31,682 nucleotides of DNA from a virus: the IMG/VR virus record IMGVR_UViG_3300028287_000015, positions 1-31,682 of that record. One strand, written 5' to 3'. Of this stretch, positions 16,181 to 30,154 are shown piece by piece (the first letter of the stretch is position 1; each line of letters opens with the position of its first letter). A program made the position numbers and the translations under genes. The notes under the pieces are model-generated. The model saw only the letters and a list, made by a program, of their open reading frames with translations. It did not search any database and had not been told where the DNA came from.

Positions 16181-16946
16181 CTTATTTTCTTGATAGCCGC
16201 AGCTTCTAATTGGTTCTTCTCTTTCTCAAACTCAAGCCAACTTAAGGCTTGCGTGACTTTAAGTTTTGTAACTTCTTCAAACTTGAGGAGGTCTCCCTGA
16301 GCGATTGCATAAATTGATTGATACCAACCCCATTTTCGTCCAAAGCTTGCCTCAGCTCCGAGTCCTCCCGTTGAATCTCCTTCTTCAAATAGCCCGTCAA
16401 ATAGATTGACAGTTCTTTCCCTAAACGATAAAAAAAAACCACAGCCCCCAGTGCTATATCAATAGGCATATCTTTCATTACCTCTGAGTACTTATCTGAG
16501 CTTTCGTAGTCTTCTATAAGATACATTCCCTTCTTCTCGAAAGTAACCGGTCTATACAATACAGCCATAGCTTTATGCATATCAGTCCAATCAGATATAT
16601 AGGTGTCTAAGTCAACAAACTCTCCTAAAGAGATACTATCTAGCTTGGGTATAAACCCAAACTCTACCTCATCACCATTTGGGTCCTTTAAGGAGAACCT
16701 GCTTATCATAGGAGTGTCCGCTTTAAACAACTCATTAAGGTGGTTTATTACAAAGTTGAAGTCAGTAAGCTTCATATTGTAGGCCTCCTTTAGAGTCAGC
16801 CCACAAAAGACCTCCAGCATCTTAAGATTAAGAAACTCTGGGTCTTCAGCTTCCTTGTTGTCCTCAGATAGCTTATAGAACTTTTGATATTCTGAAAGCT
16901 TAATTCCTCTTAGCGACTTAGGGATGTCTATCTTTAACTGCTTCAT
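16177..16946 (-). CDS. tail assembly chaperone, -1 frameshift fusion (GT form)
   Basis: A -1 slip at the T9 run (16438-16430) joins the first 170 or so codons to a second frame that stays open to a TGA at 16179-16177. The joined length is 771 bases, giving 256 residues. The new C-terminus reads through FGRKWGWYQSIYAIAQGD, LLKFEEVTKLKVTQ and ALSWLEFEKEKNQLE. This WGWYxxIYxxAxGD...FEKEKN pattern is what I know as the C-terminus of these chaperones in Bacteroidota phages, and it is absent from the zero frame. The stop overlaps the next start as ATGA. A transcriptional slip on the same run would give the same product. Confidence 0.8.
16242..16946 (-). CDS. tail assembly chaperone, short (zero-frame) form
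   Basis: A 234-residue protein starting MKQLKIDIPKSLRG. The frame is open to 16997, but the ATG at 16946 has the recurrent leader GGTTATATTAGTATG and a sensible N-terminus, so it is chosen. Helical sequence with LKMLEVFCGLTLKEAYNM and PKLDSISLGEFVDLDTYI resembles the G-type tail assembly chaperone of flavobacterial phages. The last 64 or so codons after a T9 run (IYLTGYLKKEIQ onward) are probably just what the ribosome reads when it does not shift. The chaperone coats the tape measure and recruits tube subunits, but here the tape measure lies 5 kb downstream. Confidence 0.7.
   Translation of the reverse strand: MKQLKIDIPKSLRGIKLSEYQKFYKLSEDNKEAEDPEFLNLKMLEVFCGLTLKEAYNMKLTDFNFVINHLNELFKADTPMISRFSLKDPNGDEVEFGFIPKLDSISLGEFVDLDTYISDWTDMHKAMAVLYRPVTFEKKGMYLIEDYESSDKYSEVMKDMPIDIALGAVVFFYRLGKELSIYLTGYLKKEIQREDSELRQALDENGVGINQFMQSLRETSSSLKKLQNLKSRKP
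16426..16441 (-). other. slippery site for -1 frameshift
   Basis: The minus strand reads TGGTTTTTTTTTATCG, with zero-frame codons GTT TTT TTT TAT. A run of nine T residues satisfies the X-XXY-YYZ rule as T-TTT-TTT. The -1 frame downstream has no stop for 85 codons. No clear stimulatory stem-loop was identified by eye. Confidence 0.75.
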
Positions 16947-17150: not shown

Positions 17151-17248
17151 GTTGATTTTATTAAACTGGATATACTATAACCGACCAATCTCGTTTTACG
17201 TTGATTTTATTAAACTGAACATACTATAACCGATTAAGCCCGTTTTAC
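17151..17248. repeat. two 49-bp tandem direct repeats
   Basis: Units 17151-17199 and 17200-17248 match at 43 of 49 positions by eye. Each contains TTGATTTTATTAAACTG and CATACTATAACCGA (or TATACT in unit 1). On the minus strand each reads CGGTTATAGTAT, close to the GTTATATTAGTAT leaders before several late genes. The repeats lie 200 bases upstream of the tail operon and could be regulatory sites, phage-specific promoters or origin iterons. Confidence 0.85.
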
Positions 17249-17388: not shown

Positions 17389-17417
17389 AAAAAAAAAGCC
17401 CGGTTAAAAACCAGGCT
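17389..17417 (-). terminator. rho-independent terminator of the accessory operon
   Basis: Minus-strand arms AGCCTGGTT (17417-17409) and AACCGGGCT (17405-17397) form a 9-bp stem with one G-T wobble, followed by a run of nine T residues. It lies 20 bases after the zinc-ribbon gene and ends the cassette. Confidence 0.85.
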
Positions 17418-17437
17418 CTTATAAATTTATTGATATT

Positions 17438-17575
17438 TTATTTTTGTTCTATGTCGGGAAGTCCGTAGTCGTTTAAACTTATTGACATATCCAAATAAAA
17501 CCCGCACGCGCTGCATAAAAAATTGTCCGGATCATTAACGTGGCCGCAGCAGCTGCAATCTTTGTCTATATTCAT
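17438..17575 (-). CDS. 45-residue zinc-ribbon protein
   Basis: A small protein, starting MNIDKDCSCCGH and continuing to FLCSACGFYLD. Cys7-x2-Cys10 and Cys21-x2-Cys24 form a compact zinc-ribbon with 10 residues between knuckles; Cys9 is an extra. The tail after the ribbon is acidic (SLNDYGLPDIEQK). Its ATG overlaps the previous stop as ATGA, and a terminator follows 20 bases later, so it is the last gene of the accessory operon. Zinc-ribbons of this size bind nucleic acid or a protein partner; which applies here cannot be told. Confidence 0.65.
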   Translation of the reverse strand: MNIDKDCSCCGHVNDPDNFLCSACGFYLDMSISLNDYGLPDIEQK

Positions 17576-17751
17576 TTTGTTAGGTTTATAAAGTCCTTTT
17601 GGTTAATCTGTGTTTTAAAGTTTGTTTCATTGGTTAAATAATAACTATCTTTTGTTTCTAATATCTTGACTGCTGTATTAATTGGGTACAGCCTTTTAAT
17701 ATCCCGCGCGTATTGGCGCGCGTGTTCAAACTGTTGCTTTGATTTGCTCAT
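17572..17751 (-). CDS. 59-residue basic hypothetical protein
   Basis: The product starts MSKSKQQFEHARQYARDIK and is basic in its first half, then polar (SYYLTNETNFKTQINQK). It overlaps the GP88-family gene by 26 bases and the zinc-ribbon gene by 4 (ATGA), which supports translation. No family is recognised. The dense overlaps suggest that these three genes are made together in fixed proportion. Confidence 0.55.
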   Translation of the reverse strand: MSKSKQQFEHARQYARDIKRLYPINTAVKILETKDSYYLTNETNFKTQINQKDFINLTK

Positions 17752-18490
17752 TTTGTTTTATGTTTAGTTTATTAGAATTAATTACAAAGCCGGTCGAGTC
17801 GGTCCGGGCCTTTTTTCCCTTAGCCCTTAGGCCCAATATGACCCCGCTATGGTTTAACATTATTAAATCGCTGGTGTCCCCGTCCACAACTTTAAAACCT
17901 TTGTAGGTGGCCGGCAATTGATCCGAGAAAACCGCGGAAACATTAGCCCCGAAGCTTAAGGCCTCCAGGGCTTCGGCTTCATTATCCTCAGCCCTGGAAA
18001 AAGTTAATACATAATTAGGCGCATTGATATACTTTTTAATCTTTCCTAAAATCTTACTGTAGTCATAGAAAATTGAAACCGGGGCCAGGTCGGCAATATC
18101 TAAGCCCGCGTATTTTTTCAATAGATATATAAAATCCTGGTCGCTGGTCCCGTTTAATCTAAATGCTATTTGTTCCCCTTTCTTTTTAGCTTTGGCAGTT
18201 TCTTTGACAATTTCCCCGGCCAGCTTTTTAATAAATAAAGCTTTATTATATATATAAAAGTTTGTTTTATTTATGCGCGCATTTTGGACGCTATTAAAAG
18301 CCCCGCGCCCGGCGTTATATAAGCAAGCCGCCGCGCACCCTTTGGAAGCCATTGGGCAAAGGTTAATCTTTGCGGCGTTTTGTGTGTGTGGTGCCAGGTA
18401 TAAAATAAAGGTTTTAATTTCGTTCTTTGCTGTCTTAGCGTTGGTGTGGCCCGGGCTCAATAGCCGGGCCGGTATCTTATAATTTTTCAT
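17726..18490 (-). CDS. GP88-family phage protein with Cys cluster
   Basis: A 254-residue protein that resembles the gene product 88 family, first known from mycobacteriophages and also found in other phages and plasmids; its function is unknown. The signature CPMASKGCAAACLYNAGRG places Cys45, Cys52 and Cys56 near the N-terminus, spaced like a metal or iron-sulfur cluster. Later stretches are IAFRLNGTSDQDF, VSIFYDYSK, YVLTFSRAEDNEAEAL, VSAVFSDQLP and FKVVDGDTSDL. A beta-alpha alternation in the body suggests a barrel-like fold, as in radical enzymes, but this is inference. It is the largest gene of the accessory operon. Codon use, rich in GCC, CCC and GGC, differs from the surrounding late genes. 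Confidence 0.75.
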   Translation of the reverse strand: MKNYKIPARLLSPGHTNAKTAKNEIKTFILYLAPHTQNAAKINLCPMASKGCAAACLYNAGRGAFNSVQNARINKTNFYIYNKALFIKKLAGEIVKETAKAKKKGEQIAFRLNGTSDQDFIYLLKKYAGLDIADLAPVSIFYDYSKILGKIKKYINAPNYVLTFSRAEDNEAEALEALSFGANVSAVFSDQLPATYKGFKVVDGDTSDLIMLNHSGVILGLRAKGKKARTDSTGFVINSNKLNIKQNEQIKATV

Positions 18491-18492
18491 TG

Positions 18493-18705
18493 TTATATGT
18501 TTAATAGTTTAGACTCTAAAAAGGATTCGATAAAGCCAGGGGGCAAATCAAAACTTTGCCCGTCCTTTATTATTGTGGCTTCTATTATTTCGGCCTCATT
18601 GGCCCCGGGGGTTTCATTGTCCCCAGCCCAATCGGTTAATAGTAAGGTATAGTCTAGTTGATAGCCGTCACCAATAAAGGTTTCGTATTGTTTTCTAGTT
18701 TTCAT
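18493..18705 (-). CDS. 70-residue acidic hypothetical protein
   Basis: The product starts MKTRKQYETFIGDGYQLDY and is acidic (ANEAEIIEATIIKDGQSFDLPPG). It sits 2 bases before the GP88-family gene and overlaps the gene before it by 4 bases. No family is recognised. Similar small acidic proteins accompany GP88 genes elsewhere in my recollection, but I cannot confirm a link. Small acidic size is compatible with a regulator or a DNA-mimic protein; there is no direct evidence for either. Confidence 0.6.
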   Translation of the reverse strand: MKTRKQYETFIGDGYQLDYTLLLTDWAGDNETPGANEAEIIEATIIKDGQSFDLPPGFIESFLESKLLNI

Positions 18706-19052
18706 ATCTTATTTATAAAGTTTGTCAATTGGTTAATATTATTAATGCGCTGGTCCATTTCGCCGCCGTCCGACCAAGGGTCGCGAAAAAAAGTATATTC
18801 GACCCCGTCAATTTTTGCCGATATAATGCGCTCGAATTTAATTGTACGATATTCTTTTTTTTTGGTGTTGAATAGGTTAATATTTTGAACAGCTTCCAAG
18901 TTATATTTAAGCTTTCCGCCCTTTAGATATTTAGTTACCCCTTTGCGAAATACACCCCGGCCCAATGTTTGATTGGCCCTGGTGTAAGTAAGCGAGAAAA
19001 ACCGCCCGCTTTTAATTTTGTTTTTTAGTTCTGTAAAGTTTAAAGTTTTCAT
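18702..19052 (-). CDS. 116-residue basic protein of the accessory operon
   Basis: The product starts MKTLNFTELKNKIKSGRFFS and is strongly basic in its first half (RANQTLGRGVFRKGVTKYLKGG). It ends with YTFFRDPWSDGGEMDQRINN. The pattern FFSLTYTR...GRGVFRKGVTKYLKGG looks like a nucleic-acid-binding beta domain, though I cannot name it. Its stop overlaps the next start (ATGA). It is the first substantial gene after the promoter at 19185-19218. Confidence 0.6.
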   Translation of the reverse strand: MKTLNFTELKNKIKSGRFFSLTYTRANQTLGRGVFRKGVTKYLKGGKLKYNLEAVQNINLFNTKKKEYRTIKFERIISAKIDGVEYTFFRDPWSDGGEMDQRINNINQLTNFINKI

Positions 19053-19064
19053 AATAGTTAAAGT

Positions 19065-19148
19065 TTATTGATTAATAAAATAATTAATAAAGTGGCCGGC
19101 GATATAAAAACCGAAAGCGAACAAGTAAAGGTTTGTAATTAGTTTCAT
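19065..19148 (-). CDS. 27-residue single-membrane-helix peptide
   Basis: A short ORF starting MKLITNLYLFAFGFYIAGHF. It is almost entirely hydrophobic and could span the membrane once. It lies 29 bases downstream of the predicted transcription start of the accessory promoter and 12 bases before the next gene. Length is too short for statistical support; position is the main argument. Confidence 0.35.
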   Translation of the reverse strand: MKLITNLYLFAFGFYIAGHFINYFINQ

Positions 19149-19184
19149 TGTGTAAATGTTTATGTTGATTAAATGTTGATAAGA

Positions 19185-19218
19185 CAAATGTAATAAAAAA
19201 AAGCTTACATACAACAAA
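19185..19218 (-). promoter_or_regulatory. Bacteroidota-type promoter of the accessory operon
   Basis: The minus strand carries TACATTTG (19192-19185), a perfect TAnnTTTG box, with TTG (19214-19212) 19 bases upstream inside TTTGTTG. The transcription start would be near 19178, some 30 bases before the first small ORF. The spacing fits the flavobacterial -33/-7 consensus. Confidence 0.75.
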
Positions 19219-19424
19219 TAAAAATAAAAATCAAGACGCTGAGCAAAAAAAAGTTTTTTTATCCTGGTAAACTTTGCAAAGTGAATAGGGTCCAGGTTTT
19301 AGCCTGGCCCCCTAGCTATTAATTAAGGTACGGGCGCACACGTACAAAAATATATTGACTTATGCAAATCAATACCTTATCAATAATGAATCTAAATAAG
19401 GCCCAAGCGGCCCGCGCGGGGGGT
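19219..19424. other. non-coding interval upstream of the accessory promoter
   Basis: No convincing gene is present. It holds an A/T-rich part (19219-19265) with AAAAAAAAGTTTTTTT, and an imperfect hairpin with arms GGGTCCAGG (19288-19296) and CCTGGCCCC (19303-19311). A minus-strand ORF through 19319-19504 is only a reading of the 12-bp repeats. Confidence 0.5.
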
Positions 19425-19537
19425 ACTGCGTTTAAGGGGGTACTGCGTTTAAGAGCCTGGATCCTGGCTCCTGGGCCTACTGCGTTTAAGAATTTCGGGG
19501 CCACTGCGTTTAAGAATCTACCCCTACTGCGTTTAAG
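19425..19537. repeat. five 12-bp direct repeats (ACTGCGTTTAAG)
   Basis: Identical copies start at 19425, 19442, 19479, 19503 and 19526. Start-to-start distances are 17, 37, 24 and 23 bases. Most copies are preceded by a C/G-rich spacer, and three are followed by AATT or AATC. The last copy lies 3 bases after the TerL stop. Identical short units with uneven C/G-rich spacers resemble iterons or operator arrays. Confidence 0.9.
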
Positions 19538-19540
19538 AAT

Positions 19541-20752
19541 TTATCGAATCACATAAGTGCCGCGCTTGGCATTGATCTCTGCAAACTGAAGAGCATATCT
19601 CATTGCATCGATACAGTGATTCCACTTGTCTATTGGCCGCTCATTGCGAGCGTGCCATACATAATTATTCAGCTCCTTGATTATATTCTCTGACTTAGCA
19701 TCGACTATAAGTTCGTAGTCTTGCATCAGGGCTATCCCTGAAAGGATAGACCCTTTGCCTTTCTTGGTTCCTTTTACATTACAGCCATAAACCTCCCTGA
19801 GCTCCTGGATCATCCTAGGCTCATTGTTGTCTGTTATAATTATAGAGTCTAAGGCGTGCCTTATATTCCTTTCGCCTATTTCCTTTGTAGATAGCCCAGG
19901 CTTGACAAAACACTCCTGGACCCACATAATCCTATGTTCAGTGTCTATAGAGCATCTGACGAGCGTTGTGGGGTCTGTAGAGAATCCGTAATCTTGTCCG
20001 TATACAATCTGATGGTAATCTTTGAATTGGCCAGTTCTCCAGTTGGTGATCACTACACCTTCAGCCTTGTCAATCCACCCACCCATTATCTGGTGCAGAT
20101 ACTTCCTTGGGTTCTTCTTACGCATCATCTCTACCTGATCAACAAAAGAATTAGATAGATTGTCTTTGTTGTCCATATAGCTAGTGTGAATGTATGTTAC
20201 GTTATCCTTCCATACATTCGACCCAGCTTCTACTCTTTTGGCTGCAAAGAACCTCTGGTATATCCAATGCTCCTTTGTGGTTGGGTTGAGTATTAGTATA
20301 CATCTATTCTGTTTGTTCTTCTCTCTGACTGATTGGTCTATCTTATCAAAGCTGTCTTCGTCTATAAGCTCTTCTGCTTCATCCAACACAAAGGTTGTAA
20401 TACCTTGTAAGGACTTAAGCGCAGCGGTTTGATTACCGCTGCTGGTCTTGATACCTTTAAATATTATTGAGCTTCCGGTGGCTGTGTTTAGGATCTCATC
20501 CTTAGTTATCCTAAAATGTTTAGCGATACCGAACAGCTCAAGCTTCTCCAGGAACTCTGGTATAATAGAAGTAGCAGCAGAGACCATAGTATACCTAGCG
20601 AACAGAATCTTATGACCCTTCTCCATTGTAAGGAAAGCTAGGAAGGTATTTACTGCAAAGGACTTACCAGATCCCCTACCACCCGTCACTACAAAGTAAC
20701 GGGTGTCATTTCCTAAAGCCTGGTATTTATCGTGAAGTTGAGGTGCTGCCAC
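19541..20752 (-). CDS. terL: terminase large subunit
   Basis: A 403-residue packaging motor. Walker A is GGRGSGKS at residues 24-31, Walker B with catalytic Glu is FVLDEAEE at 121-128, and a coupling-motif region (LILNPTT) follows. The nuclease half begins near the DYGFSTDPTTLVR stretch, whose first Asp is a probable metal ligand, and later carries DNNEPRMIQELRE. It pumps DNA into the prohead through the portal and cuts genome ends. The start is a GTG at 20752; the frame has no other good start before a stop 48 bases upstream. It overlaps a 54-residue ORF by 26 bases. The five 12-bp repeats follow immediately. Confidence 0.93.
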   Translation of the reverse strand: MAAPQLHDKYQALGNDTRYFVVTGGRGSGKSFAVNTFLAFLTMEKGHKILFARYTMVSAATSIIPEFLEKLELFGIAKHFRITKDEILNTATGSSIIFKGIKTSSGNQTAALKSLQGITTFVLDEAEELIDEDSFDKIDQSVREKNKQNRCILILNPTTKEHWIYQRFFAAKRVEAGSNVWKDNVTYIHTSYMDNKDNLSNSFVDQVEMMRKKNPRKYLHQIMGGWIDKAEGVVITNWRTGQFKDYHQIVYGQDYGFSTDPTTLVRCSIDTEHRIMWVQECFVKPGLSTKEIGERNIRHALDSIIITDNNEPRMIQELREVYGCNVKGTKKGKGSILSGIALMQDYELIVDAKSENIIKELNNYVWHARNERPIDKWNHCIDAMRYALQFAEINAKRGTYVIR

Positions 20753-25266: not shown

Positions 25267-25839
25267 TTATATTTTATCAAAATCTCCGTTTTTAAAATCC
25301 TCCCAGTCCTCCAGGAGCTCGTTATTAATCTTTACCTTATAGTTCTTACAACTATTAAATATTGAGGTTAAGGATATGTTTGTTTTGCTAGCGATATCCC
25401 TCATAGACATATCGCTTCTGTAATATAAAGCAAACAGCTTCTGGTCATACCAATAGTCCCAATCCTCAACCACCTTCATCAGTTTGTCAAACAGTCTGTC
25501 GTGAGCCTCTATAGCCTCCATCTCTTTCACATCGTATGTTACCTGGTTATTTATATGCAGAAAATCTGCCGAGTAATCAGACAGATCTTCTAAATAAACA
25601 GTACCATTCTTAGCTTTGTAAGTCCTTGCACTCATCCACATATTCCTTATAGTGGTCCATATGTAGAACCTATTGATTGTGCCAGTATCTTTGTAGTAAA
25701 CCTTGCTTTCGTCCTTTACATACCTATGCAGCCGAAGATACATCTCCTGGATTAAATCCTCGGCAAGGGAGGGTGGCACTCCCATATTCAACGCCATAGC
25801 CAACCAAAGCTCGTGCTTTCTACCAAGATCTTCTAACAC
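25267..25839 (-). CDS. ECF-like RNA polymerase sigma factor
   Basis: A 190-residue protein with sigma region 2 features: SLAEDLIQEMYLRLHRY (24-40), the AEDLxQE core-binding helix, and RFYIWTTIRNMWMSARTYK (57-75), the -10 reading helix. Region 4 follows: YWYDQKLFALYYRSDMSMRD (129-148), then IASKTNISLTSIFNSCK, a helix-turn-helix that reads a -35 element. Phage sigma factors redirect host RNA polymerase to late promoters. The start is a GTG at 25839 that overlaps the previous TAG. Several late genes here lack TAnnTTTG boxes, which fits a phage-specific sigma. Confidence 0.75.
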   Translation of the reverse strand: MLEDLGRKHELWLAMALNMGVPPSLAEDLIQEMYLRLHRYVKDESKVYYKDTGTINRFYIWTTIRNMWMSARTYKAKNGTVYLEDLSDYSADFLHINNQVTYDVKEMEAIEAHDRLFDKLMKVVEDWDYWYDQKLFALYYRSDMSMRDIASKTNISLTSIFNSCKNYKVKINNELLEDWEDFKNGDFDKI

Positions 25840-29508: not shown

Positions 29509-29540
29509 CAAATGTATATTATTTTTTTAATATAACCAAA
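29509..29540 (-). promoter_or_regulatory. perfect Bacteroidota-type promoter with no gene before the next terminator
   Basis: On the minus strand TTTG (29540-29537) is 20 bases before TACATTTG (29516-29509), a perfect TAnnTTTG box. Transcription would start near 29502 and meet the terminator at 29450-29417 after about 85 bases. No ATG lies in that span. The -33 box overlaps the end of the M15-like gene. Confidence 0.75.
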
Positions 29541-30131: not shown

Positions 30132-30154
30132 ATTACTGTGTTTAACAAAGTAGT

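Follow-up and report, generated by a model that had tools for sequence, protein, structure and literature searches.

The 31,682-base stretch of DNA analysed here, hereafter the window, makes up the whole of an IMG/VR virus record (IMGVR_UViG_3300028287_000015), possibly a fragment of a phage genome, and it carries between the gene of the terminase large subunit, terL, and the structural genes an operon of six small genes with its own promoter and terminator. Two of these genes, encoding a protein of the GP88 family and a basic WYL_2-like protein, stay together in a fixed slot of one phage lineage while the other four turn over. By a slight preference, we read the unit as an accessory operon expressed early by a lineage of marine flavobacterial phages, whose core pair would act on the host and in which GP88 would be a metal or iron-sulphur (Fe-S) enzyme.

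The six open reading frames (ORFs) lie on the minus strand. A hydrophobic (membrane) peptide of 27 residues comes first (19065-19148; 81-96% identical in many relatives with a near TerL), followed by the WYL_2-like protein of 116 residues, of the Sm/SH3 barrel class (18702-19052; phrog_2267, E 2e-5), an acidic protein of 70 residues with no match in Pfam or PHROG (18493-18705), the GP88-family protein of 254 amino acids with three invariant Cys residues, C45, C52 and C56 (17726-18490; PF17338, E 2e-37), a basic protein of 59 residues, of no family in Pfam or PHROG and 51-93% identical among TerL-near relatives (17572-17751), and a protein of 45 residues (17438-17575). These are the six genes listed in a preliminary description of the sequence, which had them all overlapping; they do so at three of the five junctions, the other two being short gaps. 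The zinc ribbon that it assigned to the 45-residue protein holds as far as four Cys in a CxxC...CxxC arrangement are concerned, but the match to PF12773 (E 4e-4) stays below threshold, at 20.9 bits against a cut-off of 27.3.

The TAnnTTTG box belongs to the promoter type of Bacteroidetes. Upstream of the operon (19185-19214, minus strand), a TTG at 19214-19212, a 19-nt spacer and TACATTTG at 19192-19185 make up such a promoter, which had been proposed at this place and is kept in relatives. Of 59 relatives, 54 have a TAnnTTTG box upstream of the WYL_2-like gene of the slot, against 19.5 predicted by shuffling, and a box together with a correctly spaced TTG is present in 39 of the 59 slots (3.5 expected), although in these counts, as in those for the terminator, the slots are related (TerL identity in the set, 46-99%) and are not independent events, a relatedness that the shuffles do not remove. 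The same TACATTTG box precedes the early operon at 29516. The intrinsic terminator that closes the operon (17394-17420, minus strand), predicted to be a strong one, is the best stem in the region. A strict form, stem plus T-run, recurs in 24 of the 37 slots that are complete, with 0.1 expected; the sequence has diverged and the location stays, about 480 nt ahead of the next gene in close relatives.

The main genes of the window, all on the minus strand, run from an early side through terL and the accessory unit to the structural genes, including those of the protease and the portal protein. The slot is bordered upstream by terL (19541-20752; PF04466, E 2e-32; PF17288, E 3e-16) and downstream by the gene of a conserved protein of 230 residues (16242-16934); the latter, taken at first for a tail gene, matches phrog_32199, which is an uncharacterised family. 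The nearest cultured relative is Nonlabens phage P12024L, whose host is a marine flavobacterium and whose TerL is 51% identical; no near DNA-level match to the window was found among phage records. The P12024L homologue of the downstream border gene begins directly at the terL stop, with no gap, and the unit is therefore an insertion relative to P12024L, or it was lost there. Two expectations, that the unit breaks the usual order from terminase to structural genes and that a related phage would lack the segment cleanly, are borne out by this empty slot. No empty slot was seen in the viral contigs examined, and complete slots are 2.6-5 kb long. Judged by its signals, with a promoter and a terminator of its own, by its absence from P12024L and by the turnover of its genes, the operon would be an independently transcribed accessory unit of the moron type, in agreement with the cargo module first suggested.

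ORFs were clustered over 71 slots, and their presence was tallied over the 37 complete ones; the loci are metagenomic and often partial, slot positions were set by tblastn borders, and the cluster tallies depend on automatic ORF choice. The idea that the six genes travel together does not hold. The WYL_2-like and GP88 genes are both present in 32 of the 37 complete slots and both absent from five, and neither is ever found without the other; their order, WYL_2-like and then GP88, is constant in slots of the terL lineage. The acidic 70-residue protein is present in all 13 slots of TerL-near relatives and in no more distant slot, the basic 59-residue protein in 25 of the 37 and the four-Cys protein in ten. 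In the closest relatives, the slot proteins share 38-95% identity where TerL shares 99%, which indicates that the slot evolves by allele exchange. In three loci (L063, L077 and L081), the place of the 254-residue form is taken by a distant GP88 of 203 residues (PF17338, E 7e-38; closest to PHROG 1392), as though its function had been retained. The five slots without the pair (L058, L075, L085, L090 and L092) hold other small ORFs, such as one for a 287-aa protein in L058, which are possible alternative cargo.

Outside the lineage, in loci that have neither this terL nor the downstream gene, a WYL_2-like gene is found no more than 3 kb from GP88 in 12 of 36 cases, and in six of these 12 (L023-L027 and L032) it stands directly downstream of GP88, that is, in the opposite order. 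Most WYL_2-like loci outside the lineage show no GP88 within the DNA examined. The link between the two genes is thus strong inside the terL lineage and partial elsewhere. As to the partner itself, the protein of the window scores 13.3 bits against PF10902, below the gathering cut-off of 26.7, and this profile matches three of six members of its family (best E 1.6e-8).

It could be argued that nothing more than a hypervariable point of insertion is present here, filled with unrelated small early genes, and that the linkage of the WYL_2-like and GP88 genes reflects shared ancestry and not joint function. The high turnover, the many singleton ORFs of distant slots, the descent of all slots from one phage lineage and the limited proximity of the two genes outside it would agree with such an explanation. 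The lack of any complete slot with one gene alone, the reversed order in loci without this terL and the substitution of a distant GP88 homologue at the same place argue for a functional pair, and we regard shared ancestry as a decidedly unlikely account of the linkage.

That the unit contains a GP88-family protein, as had been stated, is certain: the match to PF17338 is full-length and reaches 129.5 bits, with a gathering cut-off of 24.4, and that to phrog_1617 has an E value of 1e-61. PF17338 and PHROG 1617 are catalogued families to which no function has been assigned, and no paper on PF17338 or on 'gene product 88' was found in the literature searched. The gp88 of the cluster K phage Waterfoul, reported to be toxic (PMC11797047), appears to have only the number in common and is not treated here as a member of the GP88 family. 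The claim of an undescribed system is acceptable only in so far as GP88 and its partner both lack an assigned function; GP88 as such is a catalogued family.

Over 69 diverse GP88 sequences, C45-x6-C52-x3-C56, D117, D143, S165 and D205 are invariant, and R111 and K224 are kept in 68. The GP88 of the window has the three Cys in common with the PF17338 family, as well as the motifs RLNGTSD, YDY and DGD, whereas the pairing with a WYL_2-like gene and the slot downstream of terL are features of the window lineage. An AlphaFold2 model of the 254-aa protein (pLDDT 86.8, pTM 0.84) consists of a strand, the Cys loop and then alternating helices and strands, which amounts to a partial (beta/alpha) barrel, and the model of the short form (203 aa) has the same plan. 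The weak fold matches are recurrently radical-SAM proteins, namely MiaB for the long form and, for the short one, lipoyl synthase and viperin, the latter with the top probability among the matches shown (0.69), and several phage radical-SAM proteins rank below the GP88 family itself among the fold matches. A search of PDB sequences with the single GP88 protein gave no match; the kinases matched by the GP88 profile in PDB, with E values of 0.46 or worse, were taken as chance.

A further lead is provided by DUF5131, also known as phage Gp37-Gp68 (PF07505), in which a C-x6-C-x2-C motif precedes first SD and then TK, the order seen in GP88, with a Cys spacing one residue apart from that of GP88. 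Two GP88 matches in the phage collection are annotated as 'Gp37/Gp68-like', and no match of GP88 to PF07505 was obtained in the Pfam scan. Kinship of GP88 with DUF5131 is suggestive only, a lead from motif order and not a membership. With regard to radical-SAM enzymes, the topology of the GP88 model is compatible with them, the Cys loop coming after strand 1 of the partial (beta/alpha) barrel, and the Pfam scan gave no match to the radical-SAM family PF04055. A radical-SAM-like chemistry for GP88 may be proposed only tentatively.

The timing of the operon is suggested by the position of GP88 in other phages. At least 267 deposited phage records contain GP88, of which 237 are of mycobacteriophages and the remainder of Pelagibacter, Roseobacter, rhizobial, Caulobacter and other phages, and so do hundreds of marine viral contigs. 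Carriage by cells or plasmids amounted to one plasmid and two weak loci in the collection of bacterial and archaeal genomes, and GP88 is for this reason mainly a phage gene. In T7-like phages, it comes second from the left end (Pelagibacter phage HTVC309P and Mesorhizobium phage Lo5R7ANS) or, on the circular map of Rhizobium phage TRX32-1, lies between terL and an RNA polymerase gene. In all the mycobacteriophages listed, GP88 is near the right end and read leftwards; the early lytic promoter Pleft has been mapped to that end (PMC5712189). The early host-takeover regions of T7-like phages and of cluster A mycobacteriophages resemble the unit of the window in their early-side position and many small ORFs, with GP88 among the first genes; unlike them, the unit is located between terL and the structural genes and has its own promoter and terminator.

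In gp272 of Tunturiibacter phage Tunturi_5 (L253:1898-3235), annotated as 'minor head protein', an InPase domain is fused to GP88. InPase has been placed mainly in the polyvalent proteins of phages, which are likely packaged and injected into the host (PMC5512222). This fusion, and the occurrence of GP88 in viral proteins of up to about 1200 aa, recall polyvalent proteins; the GP88 of the window, in contrast to those multi-domain proteins, is a small single-domain protein, and GP88 is not mentioned in PMC5512222. From the promoter type, the early position of GP88 in other phages and the InPase fusion, early expression of the operon appears probable. Because GP88 is early in unrelated phages and is fused to InPase in one phage, host takeover or anti-defence is a plausible role.

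An alternative is that GP88 and its partner serve the DNA or nucleotide metabolism of the phage, for instance as a base-modifying or repair enzyme, and do not attack the host. Methyltransferase genes are indeed found near GP88 in HTVC309P and in mycobacteriophage Rebeuca, where GP88 is gp86, the phage of the window has one upstream of terL, and the predicted barrel fold with its Cys site would suit an enzyme. On the other hand, the pair is served by a promoter separate from the replication genes, lies outside the replication module, and has been gained and lost while the remaining genome was stable. We consider this alternative unlikely, and a host-directed role is the one that we hold, with some confidence, to be the better description of the pair.

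The host-directed reading could be put together as follows. The operon, whose slot is a fixed one bounded by terL and the structural genes, would be transcribed by the host RNA polymerase from its own TAnnTTTG promoter soon after infection and apart from the late genes. Its functional core would be the WYL_2-like barrel protein and GP88, the other small genes being exchangeable. GP88 would be an enzyme with a metal or Fe-S site on the three invariant Cys of a partial (beta/alpha) barrel, resembling DUF5131 and radical-SAM proteins, and might, as infection begins, disarm the host or redirect it. For the WYL_2-like partner, ligand sensing or regulation of GP88 is a guess made from its fold class. 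It is conceivable, though we find it doubtful, that the pair is an undescribed phage-wide early effector, in which an Fe-S enzyme belonging to a radical-SAM-like branch not yet described (C-x6-C-x3-C) would chemically alter a host molecule, and whose genes carry in many unrelated phages a clustering of strong (S) and weak (W) bases that selection or an unusual local mutation process would maintain and that fits no established mechanism. The analysis links GP88 to a partner gene, places it in an operon and in a context of early infection, points to a candidate catalytic site and shows its fusion to a conflict domain, which makes its role approachable in culturable phages.

Several results weigh against this reading. 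No significant match to GP88 was found by Foldseek in PDB, the best E values being 0.26 for the long form and 0.033 for the short one. In the hhalign comparison of GP88 with DUF5131, a score of 22.7 was obtained, with decoys at 16.4 or less, but the E value of 0.02 and the probability of 2% are not significant. The classical radical-SAM motif is C-x3-C-x2-C, and GP88 has the invariant C-x6-C-x3-C instead. In phage HTVC023P, GP88 is located just upstream of terL and not at the early end. The pair is dispensable, as it is lacking in 5 of 37 slots. Finally, the operon proteins had no match among PADLOC defence profiles, except for a weak zinc-ribbon similarity of the 45-residue protein to the tails of Cas12f.

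The preliminary description had offered host takeover, exclusion or anti-defence as roles. The first and the last are plausible, with no defence family matched; for exclusion, the sole hint is the 27-residue membrane peptide, which would have to lead a superinfection exclusion unit. This hydrophobic peptide is first in the operon, and a different one (cluster c9) occupies the same place in more distant slots. GP88, however, looks soluble, no membrane peptide was noted beside it in unrelated phages, and no exclusion family was matched, all of which makes an exclusion unit extremely improbable.

The genes of the slot stand out from the rest of the window in the clustering of strong and weak bases. 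It had been noted that the unit looks richer in G+C, with many GCC and GGC codons. The G+C content is in fact not raised (0.387 in the slot genes, 0.390 in the late and 0.378 in the early genes; the slot is at the 61st percentile of windows of the same length). The codons GCC, GGC, GGG and CGC are enriched, and they are so because S and W bases cluster. The lag-1 autocorrelation of S/W is 0.28 in the slot and -0.04 elsewhere, and windows away from the slot reach at most about 0.05. At fourfold-degenerate sites of the slot, S is chosen in 78% of the cases between two S neighbours and in 15% between two W neighbours, whereas in late genes it is chosen in about 25% in any context. The depletion of dinucleotides is strongest on GA/TC and AG/CT.

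Randomisation of synonymous codons with the usage of the flanks gave z-scores of 8.7 for GP88 and 6.5 for the WYL_2-like gene; when their own codons were permuted, the z-scores were 4.8 and 2.3, and no flanking gene goes beyond 2.3. The choice of amino acids or codons is thereby rejected as the cause of the clustering in the window. All 68 loci of the terL lineage and 38 of 39 others (redundant contigs included) show stronger clustering in GP88 than in DNA far from it at the same locus, and this recurrence makes a recent single transfer unlikely as the cause of the odd composition. Among 43 loci tested, GP88 ranks first of all ORFs for S/W clustering in 32, with phage HMO-2011 and locus L159 departing clearly from the pattern. 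An effect of mRNA folding is unsupported, the fold z-scores of GP88 being no more extreme than those of flanking genes. In a check of restriction-site avoidance, S-only palindromes were enriched and mixed palindromes mildly reduced. Candidate causes are selection acting on DNA motifs, biased gene conversion where the slot content is often exchanged, and neighbour-dependent mutation. The synonymous clustering is a separate puzzle; it is measurable in every sequenced phage with GP88 and may mark such genes.

Between terL and the operon, starting a few nucleotides past the terL stop, a search for repeats detected five direct repeats of TTAAACGCAGTA, an asymmetric 12-mer, in one orientation (19424-19536, minus strand), and a further copy with one mismatch is present near 30134 in the same orientation. 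In most relatives, four to eight such copies follow terL, never reversed, and some relatives have more copies elsewhere, many of them inside ORFs. The repeats would be regulatory or packaging sites and resemble stoperators or packaging repeats. The operon might be a regulatory or immunity region, with the repeats as operators or stoperators and the small proteins acting in a decision on lysogeny or timing. One-way repeats directly upstream of the operon, with extra copies elsewhere in some relatives, would be expected from such a region, and the intergenic stoperators of cluster A mycobacteriophages are likewise one-way (PMC5712189). The repeats are nevertheless closer to the terL end than to the promoter, a position within ORFs is common for copies in other relatives, and neither a repressor nor an integrase was found in the Pfam and PHROG scans, which covered the early genes only in part. 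We therefore judge an immunity region to be very improbable. Between the terminator and the next gene, a tandem pair of 49-nt repeats, 88% alike (17151-17248; repeat family D4), is perhaps a late-promoter or regulatory repeat.

The early side of the window contains genes for an ERF recombinase, RusA, an exonuclease, an HNH protein, a methyltransferase and a weakly matching sigma-70-like protein. The last (25267-25839) has weak matches to region 2 and region 4, is homologous to the annotated sigma-like gp35 of P12024L, and may drive the late genes. No RNA families or tRNAs were found in the window. The tetramer CATG does not occur in the whole window, with about 67 copies expected in the flanks, and most relatives, but not all, are also without it, which is likely due to avoidance of restriction or methylation.

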